Positions 3,077 to 15,403 of a stretch of DNA of 20,222 nt are shown piece after piece (the first letter of the stretch is position 1; each line of letters begins with the position of its first letter). The notes beneath the pieces are model-generated. The model saw nothing but the letters and a program-made list of their open reading frames with translations, made no database searches and was not told the DNA's origin. Position numbers and translations under genes: made by a program. Location of the stretch: the IMG/VR virus record IMGVR_UViG_3300036820_000621, positions 1 through 20,222 of that record. The stretch is one strand, 5' to 3'. The DNA is from a virus.

Positions 3077-3730
3077 ATGCCGCGCAGACCAATTATATGG
3101 GGACGATGGGCGGTTTATGTAGCTGCTGTCGGTGCGTTATTGACGCTGGTAGCGATTCTTGTCTCTGGATATTTGGCGTGGGATGCAATCACTGCTCAGA
3201 AAAGCGAAGCGGACGCGGCGATTGCGGAGCAACGGGACGAGGCGAAGATTGCTCATTTGGTGGAGGAGTCAGCCGCATTTGACGAGGAGCCTCTTTACTC
3301 TGAGCGACAGAAGCTTGCACGGGACCGCATCGACGCTCGGCGCGGCGTCCTGCTTCCCATGACTTATGATGATTCACCCGAAGAGTTGTGGGATGTTTTG
3401 AACGAATGCGACCATCTCGGTTTGCTAACCCAACGGGGTTATTTGGACGCCCATGACGTGTGGAGTGAGTTGGGTTATTGGCTGTTTAACATCTACGCAG
3501 ATGCCAAACCCGTTATTGAATCCGATAGGAGGGGTGACCCTGACACTGGCAGAAAAGGAGAGCCAGCTTCGATGTCCAGTTGCACGTGGCTAATTGAACA
3601 AATCACGCCAATAGAATTGAAAGAGGACAATGGTGCCGAACTGAACCCGTCGCAGGACGACATCAATGCTTTCTACTCTGGCGAGATTGCTACACCTACA
3701 AGAATCCCTTCTCGCGGTCGGAGAAAGTGA
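3077..3730 (+). CDS. DUF4760-like single-pass membrane protein
   Basis: A 217-residue protein. A transmembrane helix (about residues 12-34, YVAAVGALLTLVAILVSGYL) is followed by an acidic helical linker. The soluble domain contains LWDVLNECDHLGLLTQRGYL, DVWSELGYWLFNIYADAKPVI and CTWLIEQITPIELKED. The order 'hydrophobic helix, helical domain with H-x-GLL-x-RGYLD-x-x-x-VWSE-x-x-YW' matches my recollection of DUF4760-type proteins found in genomic islands of many bacteria; their function is unknown. The ATG at 3077 starts right before the membrane helix; the longer frame upstream (from 2813) runs antisense across another gene and was rejected. It faces the XhlA-like late gene tail to tail, 17 nt apart, so it is transcribed against the late operon. 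Confidence 0.75.
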   Translation: MPRRPIIWGRWAVYVAAVGALLTLVAILVSGYLAWDAITAQKSEADAAIAEQRDEAKIAHLVEESAAFDEEPLYSERQKLARDRIDARRGVLLPMTYDDSPEELWDVLNECDHLGLLTQRGYLDAHDVWSELGYWLFNIYADAKPVIESDRRGDPDTGRKGEPASMSSCTWLIEQITPIELKEDNGAELNPSQDDINAFYSGEIATPTRIPSRGRRK

Positions 3731-4090: not shown

Positions 4091-7051
4091 TTATTGAATG
4101 TAGATTTCGTAGACGAGCATCTGCACTGCGCCGGTCGCGGATGCTCCCACCGTTGACGGCGTCGGCGGCGTCGATATGAACTCCAAGACTGCCTCGACTG
4201 TCACCGTGCTCAAATCAGTGCCCGATGGAATCGTGACGGTGCTGTCCGATTCCGTGCTGCCCGGTGAGACCGAGCCGAGTGTCGTCGTACCGGCCATGAC
4301 AGTGACGTTTCCGTTCCAAGAAACACCACCGCTGCTGTCCACCGTCGAAGCAACGAAGTTAAGAGTCGTTGAAGTGGAAGTTGTGACTGCCGGAAATCCC
4401 GACCATTTGCAATCGCCGGTCGTTGTATAGTCACCCGGTGGAGTTGGTGAACCCGGCAGTCCAGTCCAGTTCCACTGCTCCCATTGAGCGTTTACGATTG
4501 CATACGTGCTGGTGTTGCTGTCGTATGCGGCGGCAGGACTGCTTGTAGTCGCGCTCCCGAGGTCGGTGTACGACGATGGTGAGTAACGCGGACTGTACGA
4601 AGGCGTGACAATCGAGTTGATGAGGAAGTATCCAATCTTGTTTTCAAAGTCGGATGGGTTCTGGGTCGCAATCGGCGTGATGCTGCCACCCAAAAAAGAT
4701 GGGTCGATGTAGTACACGTAGTAAAGCTGAGACTGGGCCAACGAAACAGGCGGTGAACCAATCGCTGTAATCACGCTCGGCGTCGGTGTGCATGAGACAG
4801 AGATTGAACCCACAGATGCAGTGAATGGCAGAATCGTAATCGCAGCCGTGCCACCAGAGAATGCCTGTGCGGTGAGCGTCCCTGTCGTCGCAACGGGGAT
4901 GCCTGAATAAGCCAATGAGGAAAGCGAATTGCTCACAGTAACAGGACCGGAGAAGACCCACGCCGAGGGAACGTTGGCGAAGTTTACGCACCGCACCTGT
5001 ACGTTGTATTCGTTGCCATCTGTGACTCCGACGATGAAGATTGAAGTCGCAGTGGGCGCGATGTTGGTCAAAGCGTTCCAGTATGACGCCCCGTTCGGTT
5101 GCCATTGAACCTCAACGTGACCGCCTTCGACTACGTTCGTGTCGTAAATTTCGTCCCAGCGGACGTAGATGCTATTCGATGCGATTCCAGAGGCGGTCGT
5201 GTTGATTGTTGACGGATACACGATTCCGTCTACCGTCTCGCCCGGTCCCGAGTAGGACGTGACATCGTTCGGCGGGTCGCATACCTGAGACCCTACATTC
5301 TGCGGTTGCTGCCAACCTTGCGGCGTAAGCTGCTCTGTGATGCTCCAGTCGTATATCGACGGGTCTGTCTCGGCAATGTCCAGTTCGACGGTGAGCGTGC
5401 CCGACTTGTCGGGTACGAAACGGGATGACAGAACCTCGAACTGCTTGTTGACCCACGTGTAGCGAGGATGCGTTAGCTGAATCACGTCGAGCGCGACCGC
5501 CTGATACGCCTTGAGAGAGCAGCGGATTGTTCCGCGCCCCTGAAAGCGAGTTCTGAGCAGAGCAATCTTCGCCAACCGTTGAGCGGTTGCCGATGAATCC
5601 GTGCATAGGAATGATGCTTCCTTGAAGATGCGTTCGCCGTTATCCTCCGCCAGCCACTGGTCGGAGACGTAGCCGTGCAGAGCGTCTTCTGCGTAGTACG
5701 GAATATCACCCTGCTGGTAATTGTTCTCAGGGCTGACGTACACGCCCTTGACCGCATTGCAGGTGTCACGGATGCTGAAGCGTGGATGCCATTCAATTCC
5801 ACCCACAAGGTCGGCGTCTGTCAGGCTCAACGTGGGCGCAACCCAAGCACCGGGGAAGATTGAATACTGCCCTCCCTGATAACTGATGCGACCGGCGCAT
5901 GAGGTCAGCATCGACTGGAGGATGCTGCCCCGTGCTTGGTTGAGCATGAAAAACGTATTGCACGTGTAGCGAGGTTCAGTCCCTCCGCCAGCTAAATCGA
6001 CAGCCTCGTCGCAGATATTCGCCGCTGCCGTCAGAGCCGCTGTGGGAATGTCCGCGCCCATCGTCAAGCCGAATCCGCCCTGTGTGGCCGGAATAGACAA
6101 GAAATCAGCAGCGCACAGTGCTGCGTTTTCCGTGTATCCGTAGCTGTTCGTGCGTGGGTCGTATATGTTGTTTTTTCCTTGAATCACGAATGAGATTTCA
6201 GGAATTCCCGAGGGGAAGACGTTGGACGCCCAGCCAAGCTGCACGTATGCCAGCGTGCGGCCAAGGCACAGGTCAGTTGCTTGCCACGACGTACCAGCCT
6301 GTAAGAGAGTCGGGAATGTCGCGGTATGTGTTCCGTTCAGGAACTCGACATAAATCTTGTCTTGATAGTCGGCGAACGTCGTCTCTGCCGCTCCACCTGA
6401 TGAAGTTGAGTTCGGACCGCCGCAGATGTATGTGAACGTCGTGTCGTCCGCAGGGTTCGGCTGCGTTACTATCCATGTGCCGTTATAGGTGTTGTCGTCT
6501 ACGCCCGTAACCTGTAAGTTCAGTCCGTCCTGATTCGCAATTCCCCCCGCAAGCACCATTGTCACGACACCGGATGAGCGGCTTATCGAAGTGATGTTCT
6601 GCGTTATCTGCGTCGGTGAGTAGCTTATCCAGCCGGGTCCGTTCGCATTGACAAGAACCTGCTTCCCGCCCACCCTTAGTTGCCAACTAGCTCCGGGGGC
6701 GTCCACGACACATGGATGGCACGCAAGGCAATAGACAGTGTGAAGCTGCTTATTGTTCGATGTAGTGCTGCCGCCCGTGTTGTTGTTCGATTGCTGGAAT
6801 ATCCTTACGCCGCCGACTTTTTGCGTTCCGTAGACGTATGACCACGAGCCAACCGGAGTAGTCACCGCAGTTGACAGACCGCCCTGATTATTCTTGAGAG
6901 CATCGCCGACTCCCTGCATGACGAACGATGCGCCCGTGCTCACAAGAGCGGAAACAATCGTCCCTGAGAGAGCGACACCCAGACCGGGCAATGCGAACGC
7001 AGCACCAATTGCGGCGGCTCCAACTGCTACTTCTGTGATTGCTTTTGCCAA
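4091..7051 (-). CDS. gpJ-like tail tip attachment / central tail protein
   Basis: A 986-residue protein forming the distal tip of a siphovirus tail and contacting the host. The Gly/Ala-rich N-terminal hydrophobic region (residues about 8-50) is typical of the family, followed by SYVYGTQKVGGVRIF. A small inserted beta-domain has the pattern DDNTYNGTWIV...TTFTYICGG (about 183-212). Next come the hub/phage-tail domains (about 240-590, with LGRTLAYVQLGW and QYSIFPGAW). A fibronectin-III-like region (about 630-720, IYVRWDEIYD...YNVQVRC) precedes a long Ser/Thr-rich beta-structured C-terminus. The start is a TTG at 7051, supported by GAGGT 6 nt upstream; no alternative fits. The gene follows the DUF6950/NlpC-like gene by 9 nt, the classic K-I-J order of lambda-like tails. 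The C-terminus probably sets host specificity. Confidence 0.85.
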   Translation of the reverse strand: MAKAITEVAVGAAAIGAAFALPGLGVALSGTIVSALVSTGASFVMQGVGDALKNNQGGLSTAVTTPVGSWSYVYGTQKVGGVRIFQQSNNNTGGSTTSNNKQLHTVYCLACHPCVVDAPGASWQLRVGGKQVLVNANGPGWISYSPTQITQNITSISRSSGVVTMVLAGGIANQDGLNLQVTGVDDNTYNGTWIVTQPNPADDTTFTYICGGPNSTSSGGAAETTFADYQDKIYVEFLNGTHTATFPTLLQAGTSWQATDLCLGRTLAYVQLGWASNVFPSGIPEISFVIQGKNNIYDPRTNSYGYTENAALCAADFLSIPATQGGFGLTMGADIPTAALTAAANICDEAVDLAGGGTEPRYTCNTFFMLNQARGSILQSMLTSCAGRISYQGGQYSIFPGAWVAPTLSLTDADLVGGIEWHPRFSIRDTCNAVKGVYVSPENNYQQGDIPYYAEDALHGYVSDQWLAEDNGERIFKEASFLCTDSSATAQRLAKIALLRTRFQGRGTIRCSLKAYQAVALDVIQLTHPRYTWVNKQFEVLSSRFVPDKSGTLTVELDIAETDPSIYDWSITEQLTPQGWQQPQNVGSQVCDPPNDVTSYSGPGETVDGIVYPSTINTTASGIASNSIYVRWDEIYDTNVVEGGHVEVQWQPNGASYWNALTNIAPTATSIFIVGVTDGNEYNVQVRCVNFANVPSAWVFSGPVTVSNSLSSLAYSGIPVATTGTLTAQAFSGGTAAITILPFTASVGSISVSCTPTPSVITAIGSPPVSLAQSQLYYVYYIDPSFLGGSITPIATQNPSDFENKIGYFLINSIVTPSYSPRYSPSSYTDLGSATTSSPAAAYDSNTSTYAIVNAQWEQWNWTGLPGSPTPPGDYTTTGDCKWSGFPAVTTSTSTTLNFVASTVDSSGGVSWNGNVTVMAGTTTLGSVSPGSTESDSTVTIPSGTDLSTVTVEAVLEFISTPPTPSTVGASATGAVQMLVYEIYIQ

Positions 7052-7060
7052 GGACTACCT

Positions 7061-7495
7061 CTAAATATGGAAAGCGCGAGAAACTTGTGCGAGATGTAAT
7101 GGCACACGAAGAATCCCATCCTTGTACGGGGTGAGAACTTCGGTGCCGTGCATGGCGATAATGCCGAGCGTGGATGCTCGACCTTTCTTTAGGACAACCG
7201 CGTCTCCACGTTGAGCGAACGGAACGGGAATCTCCTTCGCTTCGTACTGTGCTGCAAGGTGAACCGCAATTGCTTCCATCGTTGCTATTCCACACATGGC
7301 CTTAATCGCTGCGAATGCTTCACGCCGGTTCGTGTACTTGTCGCGCAAGGACTCTGCGACATCGACTCCAGTCATCGCTTCAATTGCACCGGCAATGAAT
7401 AGACCGCAGTCGAGTTCCCCGTACTGGAATGGGGTTATATAGCAGTGCGTGAGATAGTCGCTCAGTCGTGTCTGCCAGTTTTGAATACGGGTCAT
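7061..7495 (-). CDS. DUF6950 / NlpC-P60-like tail assembly protein
   Basis: A 144-residue protein with the phage DUF6950 pattern: W7-Q-x-R-L-x-x-Y-L near the start, FQYGELDC (Cys30) followed by F-x-A-G-A-I-E-A-M-T-G-V-D, RGDAVVL in the middle and ILRVPLHLAQVSRAFHI at the end. NlpC/P60 proteins are cysteine hydrolases of peptidoglycan and, at this place next to gpJ, correspond to lambda gpK. Where classical members have the catalytic His (H-V-G-I), this one reads TLGI, so activity may be lost or use a different residue such as the His in MHG just after. The ATG at 7495 overlaps the previous stop by 1 nt (TAATG), implying translational coupling. Confidence 0.8.
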   Translation of the reverse strand: MTRIQNWQTRLSDYLTHCYITPFQYGELDCGLFIAGAIEAMTGVDVAESLRDKYTNRREAFAAIKAMCGIATMEAIAVHLAAQYEAKEIPVPFAQRGDAVVLKKGRASTLGIIAMHGTEVLTPYKDGILRVPLHLAQVSRAFHI

Positions 7496-8112
7496 TATTG
7501 GTTGTTCTGCGACGTGGGCGACTGACCCCAATAAACTTGCTGTTCCTGAATGCCGGGAACCCACTCAAAGCCTGTATCTGCTGTGGTGCTTGGTAGTCCA
7601 AGACGGGTGAGCGTTGCGGCTAAATCTATTTGCTGGTCGTCGTTCGTATAGCGGCGATAGCATGGCCGGTTCAAATCGACCAGCACATTCTCGACCGTGA
7701 TTTGCGCTGTGCAAGTTTGCCCGTCATCGTTCAACGTCGGAGCGTCCATCTTGCCTTGGTAAGACATGACGGGATTCGCTATCAGGTTGTTTGAATCGTC
7801 GTAGAGAGCAAGCCAGATTTGGACGGTGCCGAGAATTCTTACCTCCTCCAGCACGTCAGTCATCATGTCGGATGGGATACCGGATAAGCCGATAGTGACC
7901 CCTTGCGCTTCGACGCTTGAATCCTCCGAGATTGTTGAGACAGAACAGAAGTCACCAACGCCGGTGAAGGTCATGTCGTTCCACGTAATCGAACCGAGGC
8001 CAGTCCACACGTAGGCAGTGCCACTCGCAAAGACGAGCGATGCAAGCAATGCCGGACGCACGACAGACGCACAAAGAGCCGTCGCCATCGCTGTGGTCAT
8101 GACGCGGGGCAT
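7495..8112 (-). CDS. Distal tail protein, tail-hub associated
   Basis: A 205-residue protein. An Ala-rich hydrophobic N-terminus (MTTAMATALCASVVRPALLASLVFAS) precedes YVWTGLGSITWNDMTFTGVGDF, then VEAQGVTIGLSGIPSDM, YQGKMDAPTLNDDGQT and VDLNRPCYRRYTNDDQQ. This series matches a conserved phage tail protein regularly found just upstream of the NlpC-like and tip genes; the precise role is unproven but is probably distal tail or hub assembly. The ATG at 8112 was chosen because it overlaps the stop of the upstream gene as TAATG. A much longer open frame continues upstream to 8589, but it only shadows the neighbouring gene. The stop in turn overlaps the next ATG by 1 nt. Confidence 0.8.
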   Translation of the reverse strand: MPRVMTTAMATALCASVVRPALLASLVFASGTAYVWTGLGSITWNDMTFTGVGDFCSVSTISEDSSVEAQGVTIGLSGIPSDMMTDVLEEVRILGTVQIWLALYDDSNNLIANPVMSYQGKMDAPTLNDDGQTCTAQITVENVLVDLNRPCYRRYTNDDQQIDLAATLTRLGLPSTTADTGFEWVPGIQEQQVYWGQSPTSQNNQ

Positions 8113-8756
8113 TAGATTGCCTCCGTTATGCCGAACCCTGAGAGTCCGTAGAGGCCAACGTTCGTGCTGAATTTGTTTCCGTTGTTGCGTGCGAGTCTGA
8201 AAAGGCATTTGCAGTTCCGTGTCTGAATCACTGTTCCGTCTGCTGGCGCATCGCGAAGATTCGGCCAGATGGAAATCGTTGAGTCGCCCGAACTGTCGGA
8301 GTTCGCAGGGGCGGTCAGTCGGTACATCCGGTAGCCGATTTGAATGAGGTCGCCGGGTAACAGAATCGAAATGACGTTCGGTGTCCATCCGCGAGTGACG
8401 AGGCTGTAGCCCGTCTGCCCCGCCCCGCTGACGACAGGAACTCCTGTTGCCGGTCCCTTGGGAAGAACCGCCTTGGGGTCGCCTAGCGAGAAGACATTGC
8501 TCTGACCACGGCAGGAGAGGATGAACGCTGACCATGCATCGAACGAGTAGCGATTCATCGGTGGGAAGCTGATTTGTCCTGACCACCACGACGCTTGCCA
8601 GTCATACGTCTGTGTCTGTCCTGTGAACGGCGATTGGTTCACTGCGACGGCTTCCATTGAGTCAATCTCAATCGAAGACGGAGAACAGACGTATGGCATC
8701 GTGTCGCACGGCAGGGAGACGATATTCAGACCGTTGAATGTTCCGATTACTGACAT
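8112..8756 (-). CDS. Distal tail protein (conserved phage tail family)
   Basis: A 214-residue beta-rich protein. Recognisable segments are YDWQASWWSGQISFPPMNRYSFDAW (an edge-strand motif), FSLGDPKAVLPKG, GAGQTGYSLVTRGWTP, LLPGDLIQIGYRMYRL and IWPNLRDAPADG. This order is that of a tail protein family that sits between the tape measure and NlpC/tip genes in siphoviruses and probably forms part of the distal ring. It starts at ATG 8756 with a weak ribosome site (GGAT). A 75-nt gap separates it from the tailspike gene and contains a short hairpin (8794-8812). It ends in a 1-nt overlap with the next gene. Confidence 0.75.
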   Translation of the reverse strand: MSVIGTFNGLNIVSLPCDTMPYVCSPSSIEIDSMEAVAVNQSPFTGQTQTYDWQASWWSGQISFPPMNRYSFDAWSAFILSCRGQSNVFSLGDPKAVLPKGPATGVPVVSGAGQTGYSLVTRGWTPNVISILLPGDLIQIGYRMYRLTAPANSDSSGDSTISIWPNLRDAPADGTVIQTRNCKCLFRLARNNGNKFSTNVGLYGLSGFGITEAI

Positions 8757-8831: not shown

Positions 8832-11363
8832 TTATTCGATGACGCGAACGATATATGTGGTGGAAGTTGGTGTCTCAGCAGTCGAAGTATTCACGTTGCA
8901 CAAGTAAACCGTCACCGTTCCACTAGAAGTGACCGTCCCGCGATAGGTGAAATACCCACCGGGGTCGGACGCTGCTGAGACGACGACCGGCATAGAGGTT
9001 GTTGCACCTGTAACGGTCGTAGTGCCAGACGTGCATGTGTGGGCAGAAACCGAAGAACCGCCAAGTGTCACAGCGGTGCCGCTCAATGTAGGCGTCGGCG
9101 TCCCGCTAATTTGCGAATATGCAACCTGAGCGCAGGGTGTGCTGCTCGTGCCTGTGCCGGTTGCATACTGGCCTGATGTGCAGGTCGAAGCTGCGGCTCT
9201 CGCCGCTGCCGCACCGCTGGCGTCGTAGACGCCGGAGCCAATGACAGTCTGAATTTGAGATGAGGTCGCGGCTGTGTCCGCTCCCGTGCCGTTCCCGTAG
9301 CGTAGACCAGTGACATTCGCTTCCCCGCTTGGGCACCCGCTGTCCAGCACATTGCCGTTGGCATCGTGGCATATCGTTGCTATTGCAGAGGGTGTGCTCC
9401 ACGGCAGAGCCAACGGCACTTTTGTGCCGCTTGAGTTGCCGTTGTACCCCGTCAGCGTAGAAGGCAGCACGGTATTGCTTCCGATGAGCAGAGCATACGC
9501 GTCAATGTAAGAAAAAGCGTTGCCGGGACTCCCCATGTTTACTGCATCGTCTACCGCAGGGGAGATATACGTCGCGCCAATCAGATAGTCATTAGTCCCG
9601 CCAAACGCCAACCGAATTTGTTGCCCGGATGCTGCACCGATTACAAGCGGGTATCCGGTCGGAGACACGACGCCGTTAGTGGTTAGCAATCCCGCAGAGC
9701 CAGACGCGGCGTTAAGCGTGAGAGACGGCAACATATAGTTTTGCAACGTGGACATATCCGCGTTGCCATCAATGCCCCACCAGCCAGCCATCCCGCAAGT
9801 CCCCGCCGTGTAGCCATCGAGATTCTGGATAGCCACAACCACATCCGAAAACGAAGAACCATCAAATTGAATCGCGCAAGCGTCCGGGCTTGAGTTGCCG
9901 TCCTGAAAGTAGTTCGTGCCAAACGTCAAGCTGCCGAGGGCACCAGTGATTTCAATAGCCGGGCCATACGGCGAATCTGTTGTGTAGAAGTCATTGCCGC
10001 CGATGTAAGCGGGGGCTTGACCGTAGTACGCCCGTGTTTTGTAATGCTCAAAGTGACTACTAGCTACGCGGTACGGGCCGCCAACTCCGGCATAGATGTC
10101 ATAAGCACAGTCCGCGTTGTGGGCTGAAATGCCTTGGTCGAAGAGTAGATTGTCAAAGTCCCCACCGGCTGCGCCTTCATAATCAATGGCGGCGTGGCAA
10201 GAGCCTCCGGCTCCGGTGAAGGTGTCATCGCTCATACTCCAATCGCCAAGATTGGACGTTCCATTGCCGAGCAGAAGACAGTCATAGTAGCAGTCGAACA
10301 GAGACGAGCCGTTGATGTGTCCCGCTTCCGAATCAACCGCATATACTGCGGTTTTGAATCCAGCCATTTCTACGTCTTCCATGCTCATTTTCTGGTCGTA
10401 GTAGGAGCCTCCCGGATTAAATTCGATACCGTACCCGGACGTTGGCTCCGTCCCGGCTTCCCCTACTGAGTTGGTGATGACAATATCCTTTACGAGCAGG
10501 TATGCGGCGGTGTCCGTAATGCAATTCCCAGTTGCACTGTTACATTGAATCTGAGAGATGGTGCTTCCTTGGTCATTCGACCCCGGACCAACGCCCGAAA
10601 TTGTTGCTGTCGCTGTTATTGTGTCCAATGTCGTGATGTTGCATATTCCCGCCGGAAAGAAAAGTCTTCCTTGACCGGCAGCATTGAGCGCGGCGACCGC
10701 AAGATTTGCGTATGGGGTATCATCTACGATGCCGTTACACGGCGCACCGTATGCGCTAATGTCATACTGCTCACCGCCCGTATCATAAACCGCCGTTGTG
10801 GTCGTGCTCGGAGTAATGGCTTGGCCGTTAACGTTGCCCACTGCGCCAGTCTCACCCTGCGGAATCGAGCAGTTGAGCAAAATGGGGTTTGTCCCGGACA
10901 ACCCGCACGACGCACCTTCACCCGGCGGTAGCGTTGTTACAGTGCCCATAGATAACGCAGTCACAGGTAACACCGCCATGTTCGGGTCATACGTGTCCAG
11001 CGCCCACGATGAGCCGGTAATCGCGGTCATGCCGTAGTCGCGAATGACAGCGTTCGACGTGCGGTTCTGTGCTGTGATGTGGTAGTAGATGCCCGATGGT
11101 GTCGGCACAACGCTCAGACCCGCTTGGAGCACGCCATTACTGACGAGACCGCATACAGGAGTGTCAACGACCTGAATACTGTCCACGCGGAACCCTGTCG
11201 CCGTATCAGTCGCATCGACGGGCTGAAAGCAGAGATTAGCCGAAGGGATGGGATGGCCGAATGAGTCAGCTACGTCGGACGCAGAAATCGCCGTTGATGT
11301 TTGAGCGTGTACAAGGCAAGCGGTGAAGACGAGCGATAGAGCTATAAATAATTTACGAATCAT
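8832..11363 (-). CDS. Beta-helix tailspike-like protein with N-terminal signal peptide
   Basis: An 843-residue protein. Residues 1-20 look like a Sec signal peptide: basic MIRK, hydrophobic core, VHA before Q21; a weak lipobox-like FTAC at 13-16 is also present. An N-terminal beta-domain (about 22-135) is followed by a short collagen-like patch (PQGETGAVG, 168-176). A pectate-lyase-3 entry motif (YDISAYGAPCNGIVDDT near 200, RLFFPAGI near 233-240) leads into a right-handed parallel beta-helix running to about 560. Near the end NMGSPGNAF resembles sequences before tail-fibre C-terminal domains; the last 80 residues form a Cys-containing beta-domain. Its likely role is receptor binding or polysaccharide depolymerisation; no catalytic residues can be assigned. 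The signal peptide and the location before the distal tail genes are unusual for a tailspike. Confidence 0.8.
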   Translation of the reverse strand: MIRKLFIALSLVFTACLVHAQTSTAISASDVADSFGHPIPSANLCFQPVDATDTATGFRVDSIQVVDTPVCGLVSNGVLQAGLSVVPTPSGIYYHITAQNRTSNAVIRDYGMTAITGSSWALDTYDPNMAVLPVTALSMGTVTTLPPGEGASCGLSGTNPILLNCSIPQGETGAVGNVNGQAITPSTTTTAVYDTGGEQYDISAYGAPCNGIVDDTPYANLAVAALNAAGQGRLFFPAGICNITTLDTITATATISGVGPGSNDQGSTISQIQCNSATGNCITDTAAYLLVKDIVITNSVGEAGTEPTSGYGIEFNPGGSYYDQKMSMEDVEMAGFKTAVYAVDSEAGHINGSSLFDCYYDCLLLGNGTSNLGDWSMSDDTFTGAGGSCHAAIDYEGAAGGDFDNLLFDQGISAHNADCAYDIYAGVGGPYRVASSHFEHYKTRAYYGQAPAYIGGNDFYTTDSPYGPAIEITGALGSLTFGTNYFQDGNSSPDACAIQFDGSSFSDVVVAIQNLDGYTAGTCGMAGWWGIDGNADMSTLQNYMLPSLTLNAASGSAGLLTTNGVVSPTGYPLVIGAASGQQIRLAFGGTNDYLIGATYISPAVDDAVNMGSPGNAFSYIDAYALLIGSNTVLPSTLTGYNGNSSGTKVPLALPWSTPSAIATICHDANGNVLDSGCPSGEANVTGLRYGNGTGADTAATSSQIQTVIGSGVYDASGAAAARAAASTCTSGQYATGTGTSSTPCAQVAYSQISGTPTPTLSGTAVTLGGSSVSAHTCTSGTTTVTGATTSMPVVVSAASDPGGYFTYRGTVTSSGTVTVYLCNVNTSTAETPTSTTYIVRVIE

Positions 11364-11794: not shown

Positions 11795-14182
11795 TTATTG
11801 AGGCCGTCTGCGTTGACGCTCCACGATTGACCGCTGTGCATCGCTCACGGCAGAGGCGTGAGTCATCGCTAGAGCACGGGTGAAGTTCGCCCGTGTCAAG
11901 GCGGGGTCAGTGCCACGTGCGTCGATGTATCCAATGGAGGGTGCTGAGTGTAGGTCTTTGTTAGGAATAATCCGACCGTTAGACGGCGGAATGAATCTCT
12001 CCTTGCCGAGTTCGCCGACTTCGATTGGCAGTCCACCCGTAACGTCGCCGCCCGTGGCGAAGTGGCCGAAGATGCTCCCGGAGCCAAAGAGTTTGCCGCC
12101 GAACAGCGACGATGCCCAGTCCGAGTCATTAAGCATCCCGATGAGTCCGCCAGCACCCGCCGAGATAGCAGATGGGCCGCTTGTTACGTGGGCGCTGTAC
12201 TTGCCAAGAACCGAATCAATGGTAGAGAGACCGGGGACGACACCGCCTCCGCCACTGGGCATGTTGTCCACAAATACGTGGTAGCCATCTGCCTTTTTAT
12301 GTGTTGGAAGTCCGAGCAGTTTTGCTCCGAACCCCTCGGCGGTCTGGAGTCCGGTCTTTGCCAGCGACTGAGCGGAGTTCTCAAACACGCTCTTGAAGTT
12401 TGCTTTGTGGCCGGTCATTGCCTTCGCAATCTCGGTATTCAAACTGTCAATAGTGCGTGTAGCAATCTGCTGTAATTCCTGCTGAACGTCCTCCGCCTTT
12501 CTGATTAGTTCATCCCACACGGAATCAACCATGCCCGTCCATGTGGTGTTGAGGGTCTGCTGTGCGTCAGTAAGTGACTGAATCTGCGCTTTGCTCTGTA
12601 GGGCGGAAATCTGCTGTCGAAGCTGACTTTCTTTCGCTTCATTGTCTGTATTTCCGCCAAGCGCGGCGTTCATTGCGTCGTTCACTTCGAGCCCCTGTAG
12701 CTCCTTGTTAAGGTCGGCAAGCTGATTCTTGTATTCGAGCGCGTGTGCTACGGATTCATCCAATGCCGCTGCGTGCGGAGTAATTGCCCCTGTCGCGAGG
12801 TCTAGCTTGTCTTTTTCGACCTGAAGCTGAGCATTGAGCAGTGCTTGTGACTCTGCGGCCTTCTCGGTCGCGGCTGCGAGAACATCATCGCCGTCCTTGG
12901 AACGGTCAAGCCCACCTTCGGAATCGACTACGTAACCAGATGGAGCGGTAGGACCGTTAGCGACGGTATCGGAAAGTTTCTTTAGCTGGCCTTTCGCGCC
13001 GAAGTTTTTCAGTAGCTCGTCGCCAGCCTCTGATGCCTTTTGGAGAGCGGCAATATATTCCTTTGAGCCAACAGTGAAAGTGCTTGCTTCCTTCTGCCAG
13101 TAGAGGACTTCCTCGCCCAGACTGATTTGATGCAGAGCTTTGCGCTGGTCAATCTCCTGCTCCAACAACTGAAGACGGTTCGCGACTGCTTCCTTCGCGG
13201 CTGTGATGGCGTCTTGCTGCCCAGTAACGGTCGCATTGTCATGGCTCAGGCCAATGAAATCTGATTCCTGCCCGAGAGACGCACCGTAATTCGTGAGGGC
13301 GCTTATGCGAGGCTGAATAACGGAAGCCGCATATCCTCCGTTGGCTTGGTCAGCCACCATCTTTGCCTTAGCATCGGCCAATTGTGGCGCAACCCACGTC
13401 GATAGTTCCTTGTCGATGGCCGCTTTACGAGCGGCGTCTAACTGGTCTGTCGCATCGTCAATCTGTTTCTGTGTTGCGCCTTGCTTCTTCAACTCCTCAA
13501 GGTGTGCCCTGCCGTTTATGTCAATCTGTGAGAGGTTGTCCTGCAATCCCTGAGCGTGTTTCGTGACATCTGATGTGTCGGTAGACGATGCATTCAAGAG
13601 ACCCCATAAACCCGGCTCCTGAGCCTTCAATGTGTCCGCAATCTTCTTTACGTCATCAGTCAGCTTGGAGCCCAGCTTGTCAGCAGACTCAATCGCTTCA
13701 TCAATCGCAAGTTTCAAACCGTTGGTTGGCTTGTTCTCCAGCTTCGCGATTGCGTTCGCAATCTTGTCGTTGGTAACCTGCAATTCATCATTCGTGAGTT
13801 GCATCGAACCCTGAAGGCTCTGCCAATCATCGGCGTTTTTCCGGGCGGCTTCCTGCGACTTCTGTGCGAATTCGACAATCTTTTCGGTGACCTTAACGAC
13901 AGTGGTGATGAGCGCGAAGACGACAACGCCATCGAAAGCAAGATTCAATGCCTTCGATACGCCCGGTAGCGTGGAGATAACCCGTTGCAGGGAACGCGGG
14001 ATTCCTAATCCCATTTCCTCCGACAAGAGCCGCACAGAATCCTGCGACTGCTTCATCTCCGCACGCATTTGCGCGGTGTACTTCTTCGTAGCAGCCGTGG
14101 CATCGCCTAGAGCCTGTTTGAACTTGGCAGTATTGGCCTGAAGTTCAACGTAAATTTCTGCTACTTTTGCGCTATTTGGCAT
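11795..14182 (-). CDS. Phage tail tape measure protein
   Basis: A 795-residue tape measure protein, which sets tail length and is ejected at infection. The N-terminus has the family pattern (VAEIYVELQANTAKFKQAL, then KKYTAQMRAEM), a hydrophobic segment (about 85-105, VVVFALITTVVKV) and long helical coiled coils to about residue 620. The C-terminus has a Gly-rich hydrophobic part (AGAGGLIGML, FGSGSIFGHFATGGDV) and the common VGELGKERFIPP...GRIIPN motif. At about 1.5 angstrom per residue the length implies a tail near 120 nm. The ATG abuts the stop of the frameshifted chaperone frame (TAAATG), with AGGA upstream, so it is coupled to it. Confidence 0.9.
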   Translation of the reverse strand: MPNSAKVAEIYVELQANTAKFKQALGDATAATKKYTAQMRAEMKQSQDSVRLLSEEMGLGIPRSLQRVISTLPGVSKALNLAFDGVVVFALITTVVKVTEKIVEFAQKSQEAARKNADDWQSLQGSMQLTNDELQVTNDKIANAIAKLENKPTNGLKLAIDEAIESADKLGSKLTDDVKKIADTLKAQEPGLWGLLNASSTDTSDVTKHAQGLQDNLSQIDINGRAHLEELKKQGATQKQIDDATDQLDAARKAAIDKELSTWVAPQLADAKAKMVADQANGGYAASVIQPRISALTNYGASLGQESDFIGLSHDNATVTGQQDAITAAKEAVANRLQLLEQEIDQRKALHQISLGEEVLYWQKEASTFTVGSKEYIAALQKASEAGDELLKNFGAKGQLKKLSDTVANGPTAPSGYVVDSEGGLDRSKDGDDVLAAATEKAAESQALLNAQLQVEKDKLDLATGAITPHAAALDESVAHALEYKNQLADLNKELQGLEVNDAMNAALGGNTDNEAKESQLRQQISALQSKAQIQSLTDAQQTLNTTWTGMVDSVWDELIRKAEDVQQELQQIATRTIDSLNTEIAKAMTGHKANFKSVFENSAQSLAKTGLQTAEGFGAKLLGLPTHKKADGYHVFVDNMPSGGGGVVPGLSTIDSVLGKYSAHVTSGPSAISAGAGGLIGMLNDSDWASSLFGGKLFGSGSIFGHFATGGDVTGGLPIEVGELGKERFIPPSNGRIIPNKDLHSAPSIGYIDARGTDPALTRANFTRALAMTHASAVSDAQRSIVERQRRRPQ

Positions 14183-14587
14183 TTATTTCCTAATCGGTGT
14201 TGCGTTTGATGACATTTCCTGAATCAAACGAATCATTGCTTCCTCGTCGGATTCCACGCGGTTCCATCTGGACGGCATAAAGTCCGTCACTTGCGGTATC
14301 TTCTTCGGAGCGGCCATTGAAAAGCCGACGACATTGCGATTGATGAGAGCGAGTAAGAACTCCTGCCGCTCCTGCTCCATGCTGCGCCTCTTGCGGAGAG
14401 CAGCGAACAAGCGCGGCGTCAGGCTCATGAACTCATCGCGGGACAGGCTGAAATCGTATCTCGCTTCCGACCAAAGGCTCACCCACATTTGCTGTCGGGT
14501 TAGCTTTGGCCGCGAGTAGGGTTTTCGTCGGACTCTTTTTCTGGCTCCGTCTGAGCCAGCGCCCACGCTTCGAGAACTTTCCCCCAT
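14183..14587 (-). CDS. Tail assembly chaperone C-terminal extension (gpT-like, made by -1 frameshift)
   Basis: This frame overlaps the end of the upstream chaperone gene and is in the -1 register relative to it. The conserved part begins after the slip site: KLTRQQMWVSLWSEARYDFSLS, then RRSMEQERQEFLLALINRNVVGFS and VTDFMPSRW. These resemble lambda T-type extensions that bind the tape measure protein. The ATG at 14587 has no use as an independent start, because the first 20 or so residues are low-complexity Arg/Ser read across the other gene. The product is expected as a fusion of about 110 residues from the upstream frame plus 111 from this one (about 221 in all). Its stop abuts the tape measure ATG. 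Confidence 0.75.
   Translation of the reverse strand: MGESSRSVGAGSDGARKRVRRKPYSRPKLTRQQMWVSLWSEARYDFSLSRDEFMSLTPRLFAALRKRRSMEQERQEFLLALINRNVVGFSMAAPKKIPQVTDFMPSRWNRVESDEEAMIRLIQEMSSNATPIRK
14468..14524 (-). promoter_or_regulatory. Programmed -1 ribosomal frameshift signal
   Basis: On the minus strand the heptamer A-AAC-CCT (14524 to 14518) fits the X-XXY-YYZ slip rule in the chaperone reading frame. After a 5-nt spacer comes a long hairpin: 14512-14504 pairs with 14476-14468 (9 bp, one G-U), a C bulge at 14477, then CT (14503-14502) with AG (14479-14478), one mismatch, then ACCC (14500-14497) with GGGT (14484-14481), leaving a 12-nt loop. The zero-frame stop (14502-14500) lies inside the stem. 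Confidence 0.75.
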
Positions 14588-14847
14588 GCTTCGGGGAGAG
14601 ATTTCCGCGTGATGAGCGACTTCGCGTGCTCGAATGTCAACTCGGGGTGAGAAGTACGAGCGGTTGCAAAAAACATGGCGCGAACAAGTCCAACGGTCGG
14701 CGTCGAAATATCACGGGAACGGAGTCCCGTGATTAGCGGACGGTCAACGATTTCCTCGGCATCGGCGATAGCGTTGAAGTCATAGACCAATTCGTAATCA
14801 ACACCAGACAGTTTCAGCTTCACTGAGGGTTTTTCAGGATGAGACAT
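14500..14847 (-). CDS. Tail assembly chaperone (gpG-like)
   Basis: A 115-residue protein opening MSHPEKPSVKLKLSGVDYELVYDFNAIADAEE, the pattern of phage tail assembly chaperones that keep the tape measure protein soluble during tail assembly. The rest is helical (VGLVRAMFFATARTSHPELTFEHAKSLI) with an acidic end (TEPEKESDENP). The ATG at 14847 has AAAGGA 5 nt upstream and was preferred over the in-frame GTG at 14862. Its last 88 nt overlap the gpT-like frame, and a slip site plus hairpin lie just before its stop. Most ribosomes should make this short form and a minority the long fusion. A U-run hairpin upstream (14874-14902) should reduce its mRNA relative to the tail tube. Confidence 0.8.
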   Translation of the reverse strand: MSHPEKPSVKLKLSGVDYELVYDFNAIADAEEIVDRPLITGLRSRDISTPTVGLVRAMFFATARTSHPELTFEHAKSLITRKSLPEAWGKVLEAWALAQTEPEKESDENPTRGQS

Positions 14848-14871
14848 TGGGGTCCTTTGCACTGTTTAGAT

Positions 14872-14926: not shown

Positions 14927-15403
14927 TTAGCTACCGGCAGTGAACGTGACGGCAGTCGTAATCTGGATGGAGATTTTGTACGTCAGCAACTTCGTTGGGT
15001 CAATACCATCGGGAATCGGCTGCTCCAGAACGAATCCGGAGAAGGAGTACAAGTTGCCGGTAGTCGTTTGACCGAATTGCGTAATTACAGGGAACTGCAC
15101 CTTGAAGTCGTGTAGAACTGTCGAAGAGAACGCAGTCATGAGAGCAGCAAGGCCCGTGTCCGTGGACAGGTAGATTGCCGAAGCCTCGAATTTGCCGGGT
15201 TCAATGACTGTGGGCAAATATTGCTTTACGGTTGCTTCGCCGAGAGTGGGAGAAGACAAGCAGGTTGCATCTTCTGTTTGCAGCGTTGGCTGCGTCCACG
15301 AGATGCTTTTTACCTGCAAGATTGATGTGAACGTCTCGCCCTCACCGGGAGTTCCGATGGAGAGAATTACGCCACTGCCAGTTGCGCCAATTGTATTGGA
15401 CAT
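14927..15403 (-). CDS. Major tail (tube) protein
   Basis: A 158-residue tail tube subunit that polymerises into the rings of the siphovirus tail. Segments supporting this are ATGSGVILSIGTPGEGETFTS, VKSISWTQPTLQTEDATC, VKQYLPTVIEPGKFEASAIY (a typical tube-protein strand pair) and GNLYSFSGFVLEQPIPDG ahead of the final strands YKISIQIT. The fold family is that of lambda gpV/Hcp-like tubes (TTP). The ATG at 15403 has only a modest ribosome site (GAGG about 12 nt upstream), 20 nt after the DUF3168 gene. A terminator-like hairpin follows the stop. Confidence 0.85.
   Translation of the reverse strand: MSNTIGATGSGVILSIGTPGEGETFTSILQVKSISWTQPTLQTEDATCLSSPTLGEATVKQYLPTVIEPGKFEASAIYLSTDTGLAALMTAFSSTVLHDFKVQFPVITQFGQTTTGNLYSFSGFVLEQPIPDGIDPTKLLTYKISIQITTAVTFTAGS

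Follow-up and report, generated by a model that had tools for sequence, protein, structure and literature searches.

A predicted -1 frameshift between two tail assembly chaperone frames in a virus record, and the variable slip site of its relatives

Known chaperone frameshifts and the locus in the window

The closest described system is the tail assembly chaperone frameshift of lambda G/GT (Xu, Hendrix and Duda 2004, as cited in PMC5009743 and PMC3483164). Its gene pair lies between the genes of the major tail protein and the tape measure; the second frame is read in the -1 register, and slippage takes place at G_GGA_AAG, shortly before the first frame ends. Work on PRFect (PMC10885494) reports SEA-PHAGES tail chaperones without an XXXYYYZ motif, including GGGGGAA. 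It also gives a hypothetical 'twoonefour' class into which GGACCCC would fit by name, GGACCCY itself not being spelled out in the text consulted. Among the literature matches listed, from a search that left subscription papers mostly outside, neither AAACCCT nor GGACCCY was found as a described slip site.

The window analysed here is a whole virus record of 20,222 bases, whose structural genes are all on the minus strand, in the order prohead protease, capsid, connectors, tail terminator, major tail protein, chaperone, second frame and tape measure. The features around the chaperone are the following:

14927-15403, minus strand: major tail (tube) protein, PHROG 158 (E 1.8e-10), directly upstream of the chaperone
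14500-14847, minus strand: zero-frame tail assembly chaperone (gpG-like), 115 aa from ATG 14847
14518-14524, minus strand: slip heptamer A_AAC_CCT, in the zero frame, 5 codons before the stop
14460-14516, minus strand: downstream hairpin (outer helix from 14516-14512; main helix 14511-14504 with 14476-14469), enclosing the zero-frame stop
14500-14502, minus strand: zero-frame stop TAA, 15 nt past the heptamer
14183-14518, minus strand: -1 frame with the gpT-like domain, predicted to be entered by a slip at the Tyr codon TAC (14518-14516)
11795-14182, minus strand: tape measure protein, PF09718 Tape_meas_lam_C (E 3.8e-07), its ATG directly after the -1 frame stop

The chaperone ORF spans 14862-14500 (minus strand) and has a further upstream GTG at 14862; ATG 14847 is the likely start, because AAGGA can be read in the sequence just upstream of it. 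The zero frame ends in GAC GAA AAC CCT ACT CGC GGC CAA AGC TAA, and the -1 frame, open to 14183, overlaps it by 211 nt. An earlier note on this DNA had proposed a -1 frameshift at A-AAC-CCT, at the place where lambda-like phages frameshift. In the window, the heptamer indeed has the correct phase in the zero frame, the chaperone is overlapped by a second frame shifted by -1, and the pair does sit between the major tail protein and the tape measure. The predicted fusion has 110 + 111 = 221 aa, with the junction ...SDENP|YSRPKLTRQQ. Of the 4907 codons in the genes of the window, 8 carry an in-frame X_XXY_YYZ heptamer, a rate that gives P ~0.024 for finding one in the last 15 codons. A lambda-like GGGAAAG near 14584 (in TGG GGG AAA GTT) was rejected as a slip site, being in the wrong phase for -1 and off the conserved position.

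Both parts were compared with known proteins. The zero frame of the window matches a PHROG 2115 tail protein (E 3.8e-11); its sequence gave no match to lambda gpG. Among solved structures, its AlphaFold model (pLDDT 86) is closest to the tail assembly chaperone of HK97 (2ob9, Z 5.0) and next to YqbN (3klu, Z 4.2), with 10-11% identity; since Z is low, the fold match supports rather than proves kinship with HK97. In a viral structure library the matches listed include tail assembly proteins, N15 GT among them. Sequence profiles of the two domains run against the PDB found nothing. The -1 domain of the window has no Pfam or PHROG match above threshold, so that its assignment rests on relatives: the -1 frames of the relatives' set match Phage_TAC_6 (PF09550) in 17 of 20 sequences and, in a feature shared with lambda, Minor tail protein T (PF06223) in 12 of 20. 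Zero-frame relatives match Phage_TAC_11 (PF11836, GTA-gp10) in 10 of 30. PF11836 and PF09550, separate families in Pfam, are represented here by the two overlapping frames of a single pair.

The second frame in relatives

Viral contigs and bacterial genomes were scanned with both domains, which yielded ~100 loci, many of them repeats of one contig. After reduction to at most 85% identity in the chaperone, 47 sequences were analysed, window included; slip motifs played no part in choosing them, and three loci from Acidobacteriota searches (L107, L110, L111) were left out of the statistics. Identity in the -1 domain was 36-37% to the first relatives found and 23-45% over the wider set, and no closer ones came up when the -1 domain of the window itself was used for a scan. 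A long ORF of tape measure size comes next in most relatives with enough DNA.

Each of the 47 sequences has its second frame in the -1 register. Canonical in-frame heptamers were concentrated in the overlap (27 of 876 codons, vs 8 of 5230 outside; p 9e-17, sequences treated as independent), and so were C_CCN motifs (47 of 876 vs 61 of 5230; p 1e-13, same treatment). By phase, 24 of the 47 sequences had a canonical heptamer in the zero phase, vs 8 and 3 in the two others, and the pattern was kept when each 45%-identity cluster contributed a single member (17.2, 4.6 and 2.6 of 29 clusters).

Two frames may merely look separate because of slippage during transcription or an error in assembly, both of which can pass for a frameshift between neighbouring ORFs. 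We regard this as extremely improbable here: a run such as AAAACCC is too short for efficient polymerase slippage, and independent contigs, dozens of them, as well as bacterial genomes show the same -1 layout. Another possibility is that translation of the downstream frame begins at a start of its own (ATG 14587 or later), by independent initiation or by termination-reinitiation, and yields a separate protein. The -1 frame of the window does hold ATG 14587, an upstream GTG, and an ATG 14 nt past the zero-frame stop, but no good Shine-Dalgarno sequence precedes 14587. Moreover, in many relatives (L031, L049, L066, L094, L025, L047) the overlap is just 16-46 nt and contains no usable start codon, which means that their downstream part can be reached only via a shift. 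In L049, L031, L066, L094, L025 and others, a stop just upstream closes the -1 frame, which offers no start before a conserved P-x-L-T, so that a start further in would cost conserved residues. Separate initiation is therefore very unlikely.

We conclude that a -1 programmed ribosomal frameshift of the lambda G/GT type very probably joins the gpG-like chaperone to the gpT-like domain. The observations on which this reading is based are the register, the motif and its enrichment, the homology of both parts (for the T part, via the relatives) and the gene order; the frameshift proposed by the earlier note is thus strongly supported by the relatives and by the domain matches. Most ribosomes would read the chaperone through to TAA and produce the 115-aa gpG-like protein. 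A minority would pause at A_AAC_CCT, where tRNA-Asn (AAC to AAA) and tRNA-Pro (CCT to CCC) would re-pair one base back, and the slipped ribosomes would go on in the -1 frame to give the 221-aa fusion (...DENP-YSRPKLT...). The tape measure is the expected partner of the G part, and the tail tube protein that of the T part; such binding would set up tail assembly. Unlike in lambda, the slip is C-based and predicted to be weaker, and a strong hairpin lies downstream; the slip site alone is probably weak, and the hairpin, 1-6 nt downstream, probably raises efficiency.

In cultured phages, single-protein searches each gave at most 1-2 weak matches, and the family is present in 4 of 396 Acidobacteriota genomes, which suggests an Acidobacteriota host for the phage of the window. 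The analysis as a whole supports a recoding site in a phage group barely present among cultured phages, for which gene callers would miss the GT fusion.

Variation at the slip site

The slip heptamer was compared within the close clade, 13 sequences that align without gaps. The slip position is kept: RAC_CCY stands at the same relative position in 13 of 13 members, in the form A_AAC_CCY in the window and L026 and N_GAC_CCY in the remaining ones, and ACCC (columns 3-6) is the sole invariant part. AAACCCT as such is usually absent, the relatives having mostly G_GAC_CCY, although it appears again in the distant L048 and L103, and overlaps CCCAAAC in L044. The earlier note had named relatives that keep both frames and lack the heptamer as evidence against frameshifting. 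Such relatives exist with respect to AAACCCT, but they carry another slip motif in the same place, and frameshifting is therefore not refuted. At the level of sequence, the comparison shows that the heptamer itself is replaceable.

The noncanonical G_GAC_CCY is the commonest slip form in the family (L020, L030, L031, L032, L035, L049, L066, L072, L080, L090, L094, L008 and others), and the sole candidate in several overlaps of 28-34 nt. Of the 47 sequences, 16 have GGACCCY in phase and none in the other phases; the phase counts for GACCC are 26, 0 and 0. Codon choice is biased at this place. The Asp codon before Pro is GAC in 26 cases and GAT in 2, compared to 215 and 152 elsewhere (p 1e-4); the Pro codon of GAC_CCN is CCY in 23 of 26 cases, vs 148 of 339 elsewhere (p 2.7e-6); and the base preceding GAC is G in 17 of 26 (p 8e-4). 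These three preferences would be explained better by slippage than by constraint on the protein alone. In some RNA viruses, slip heptamers are known that begin with G_GA as an imperfect first half (PMC5009743). We lean, with some reserve, towards a site based on RAC_CCY, above all G_GAC_CCY (GGACCCT or GGACCCC), being a functional -1 signal, at which tRNA-Pro would re-pair perfectly and tRNA-Asp partly (GAC to GGA). AAACCCT of the window is, as judged from its identical position, the canonical counterpart of this site. While the frameshift trick is ordinary, the G_GAC_CCY site seen across the family is the lead with most novelty, and tools seeking only XXXYYYZ would overlook this common form.

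A variant of the same frameshift needs a single tRNA: tRNA-Pro alone would slip on C_CCT (a Z_ZZN tetramer), AAC need not re-pair, and AAACCCT would be a chance improvement on an ancestral C_CCY. The invariance of ACCC in the close clade points in this direction, as does the presence of an in-phase C_CCN in 40 of the 47 sequences. The preference for CCY agrees with the ranking obtained in E. coli, where C_CC.U and C_CC.C are among the few shift-prone tetramers, and C_CC.A and C_CC.G are much weaker, barely shifting (PMC4066793). The excess of G before GAC stands against it: since G is favoured there, the P-site tRNA is suggested to matter too, through re-pairing on G_GA. We hold slippage of tRNA-Pro alone to be possible but rather unlikely, and keep the two-tRNA slip as the preferred reading. 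For the two-tRNA slip, the same E. coli tests indicate that, with the IS3 pseudoknot, 3 of 64 heptamers fall below threshold (A_AA.C_CC.A, G_GG.C_CC.A and C_CC.G_GG.C); A_AA.C_CC.U, not being one of these, is above threshold. It is not among the motifs listed as shifting at >0.10% without stimulators (PMC4066793).

Other relatives carry C_CCT_TTN, C_CCA_AAC, C_CCC_CCA, G_GGC_CCT, A_AAA_AAC or G_GGG_GAA. The PRFect motif GGGGGAA is found in L037, L046 and L047 of the present set. Three sequences (L081, L084 and L087) have no canonical heptamer, RAC_CCN or GGGGGAA; an in-phase C_CCT is present in L081 and L084, and in L087 only further upstream. In L047, a Granulicella mallensis prophage, the overlap is 16 nt and the zero-frame TAG (near 3310) follows G_GGG_GAA without a gap; the shift must for this reason take place at or next to termination. 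A_AAA_AAC has the same stop-abutting position in L016, L017 and L038.

The downstream hairpin and other candidate stimulators

A hairpin 5 nt past the slip site, with the stop codon in its stem, was part of the earlier description of this locus. RNA folding of the window gives a stable hairpin that does enclose the UAA stop inside its stem, but the distances differ: the main stem, in which GGCCAAAG pairs with CUUUGGUC, starts 6 nt past the heptamer, and an outer 5-bp helix (CUCGC/GCGAG) starts 1 nt past it. The MFE is -28.1 kcal/mol (z -2.9), and none of 200 shuffles folds as well. Of all 60-nt stretches on the minus strand, this one ranks among the best-folding 0.16% (0.06% when GC-matched), and none of the other 7 in-frame heptamers of the window has a comparable one. 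Compared with synonymous recodings that leave the protein of the downstream frame unchanged, the hairpin is marginal (p ~0.036).

Over the family, folding downstream of the slip is better than in recoded controls (Stouffer z -4.6, kinship not corrected; 12 of 37 at p < 0.05), with poor folding in L020, L026, L030 and L032. The stem itself is not conserved as one structure. RNAalifold gave no consensus pairs on the 13 aligned close-clade sequences, and a single conserved hairpin was rejected. When the structure of the window was applied to the close-clade alignment, 59% of cells were paired, vs 28-48% in slid controls, most outer pairs being broken. The pairing partner of the 5' arm around the stop differs between lineages, being one or the other of two Trp-codon regions. 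The hairpin is thus modestly supported and variable between lineages. As for the stop inside the stem, which had been taken for a distinctive design, the pairs spanning it average 9.2 in the family vs 8.9 in recoded sequences; as this count equals the recoded expectation, it is neither a distinctive design nor a selected feature.

An upstream Shine-Dalgarno-like stimulator, optional in the canonical bacterial -1 signal, is absent in the window. Among 44 family sequences, 27 have Shine-Dalgarno-like tetramers ~6-17 nt upstream of the slip, where 17-20 are expected; these are a possible upstream stimulator. The first null used was too lenient, because the acidic tails are GAG-rich; with local shuffles the excess has z 2.3-3.3. 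There was no trade-off across the family between the hairpin and this upstream element (p 0.68).

Three other regions of the window drew attention. A 61-aa ORF near the contig end (1353-1538, minus strand) resembles a Flp/Fap-type pilin (GEEGQDLVEYSLLVALIALVCISG) and may be phage cargo or host flank. In the tail module, an 843-aa protein (8832-11363, minus strand) without a Pfam match has a secreted-like start (MIRKLFIALSLVFTACLVHAQ) and reads like a beta-helix. The tail tip genes (4091-8756, minus strand) include DUF6950 and a sub-threshold Phage-tail_3 match; together with chaperones of the TAC_11/TAC_6 type, they resemble by eye the tail module of a gene-transfer agent.
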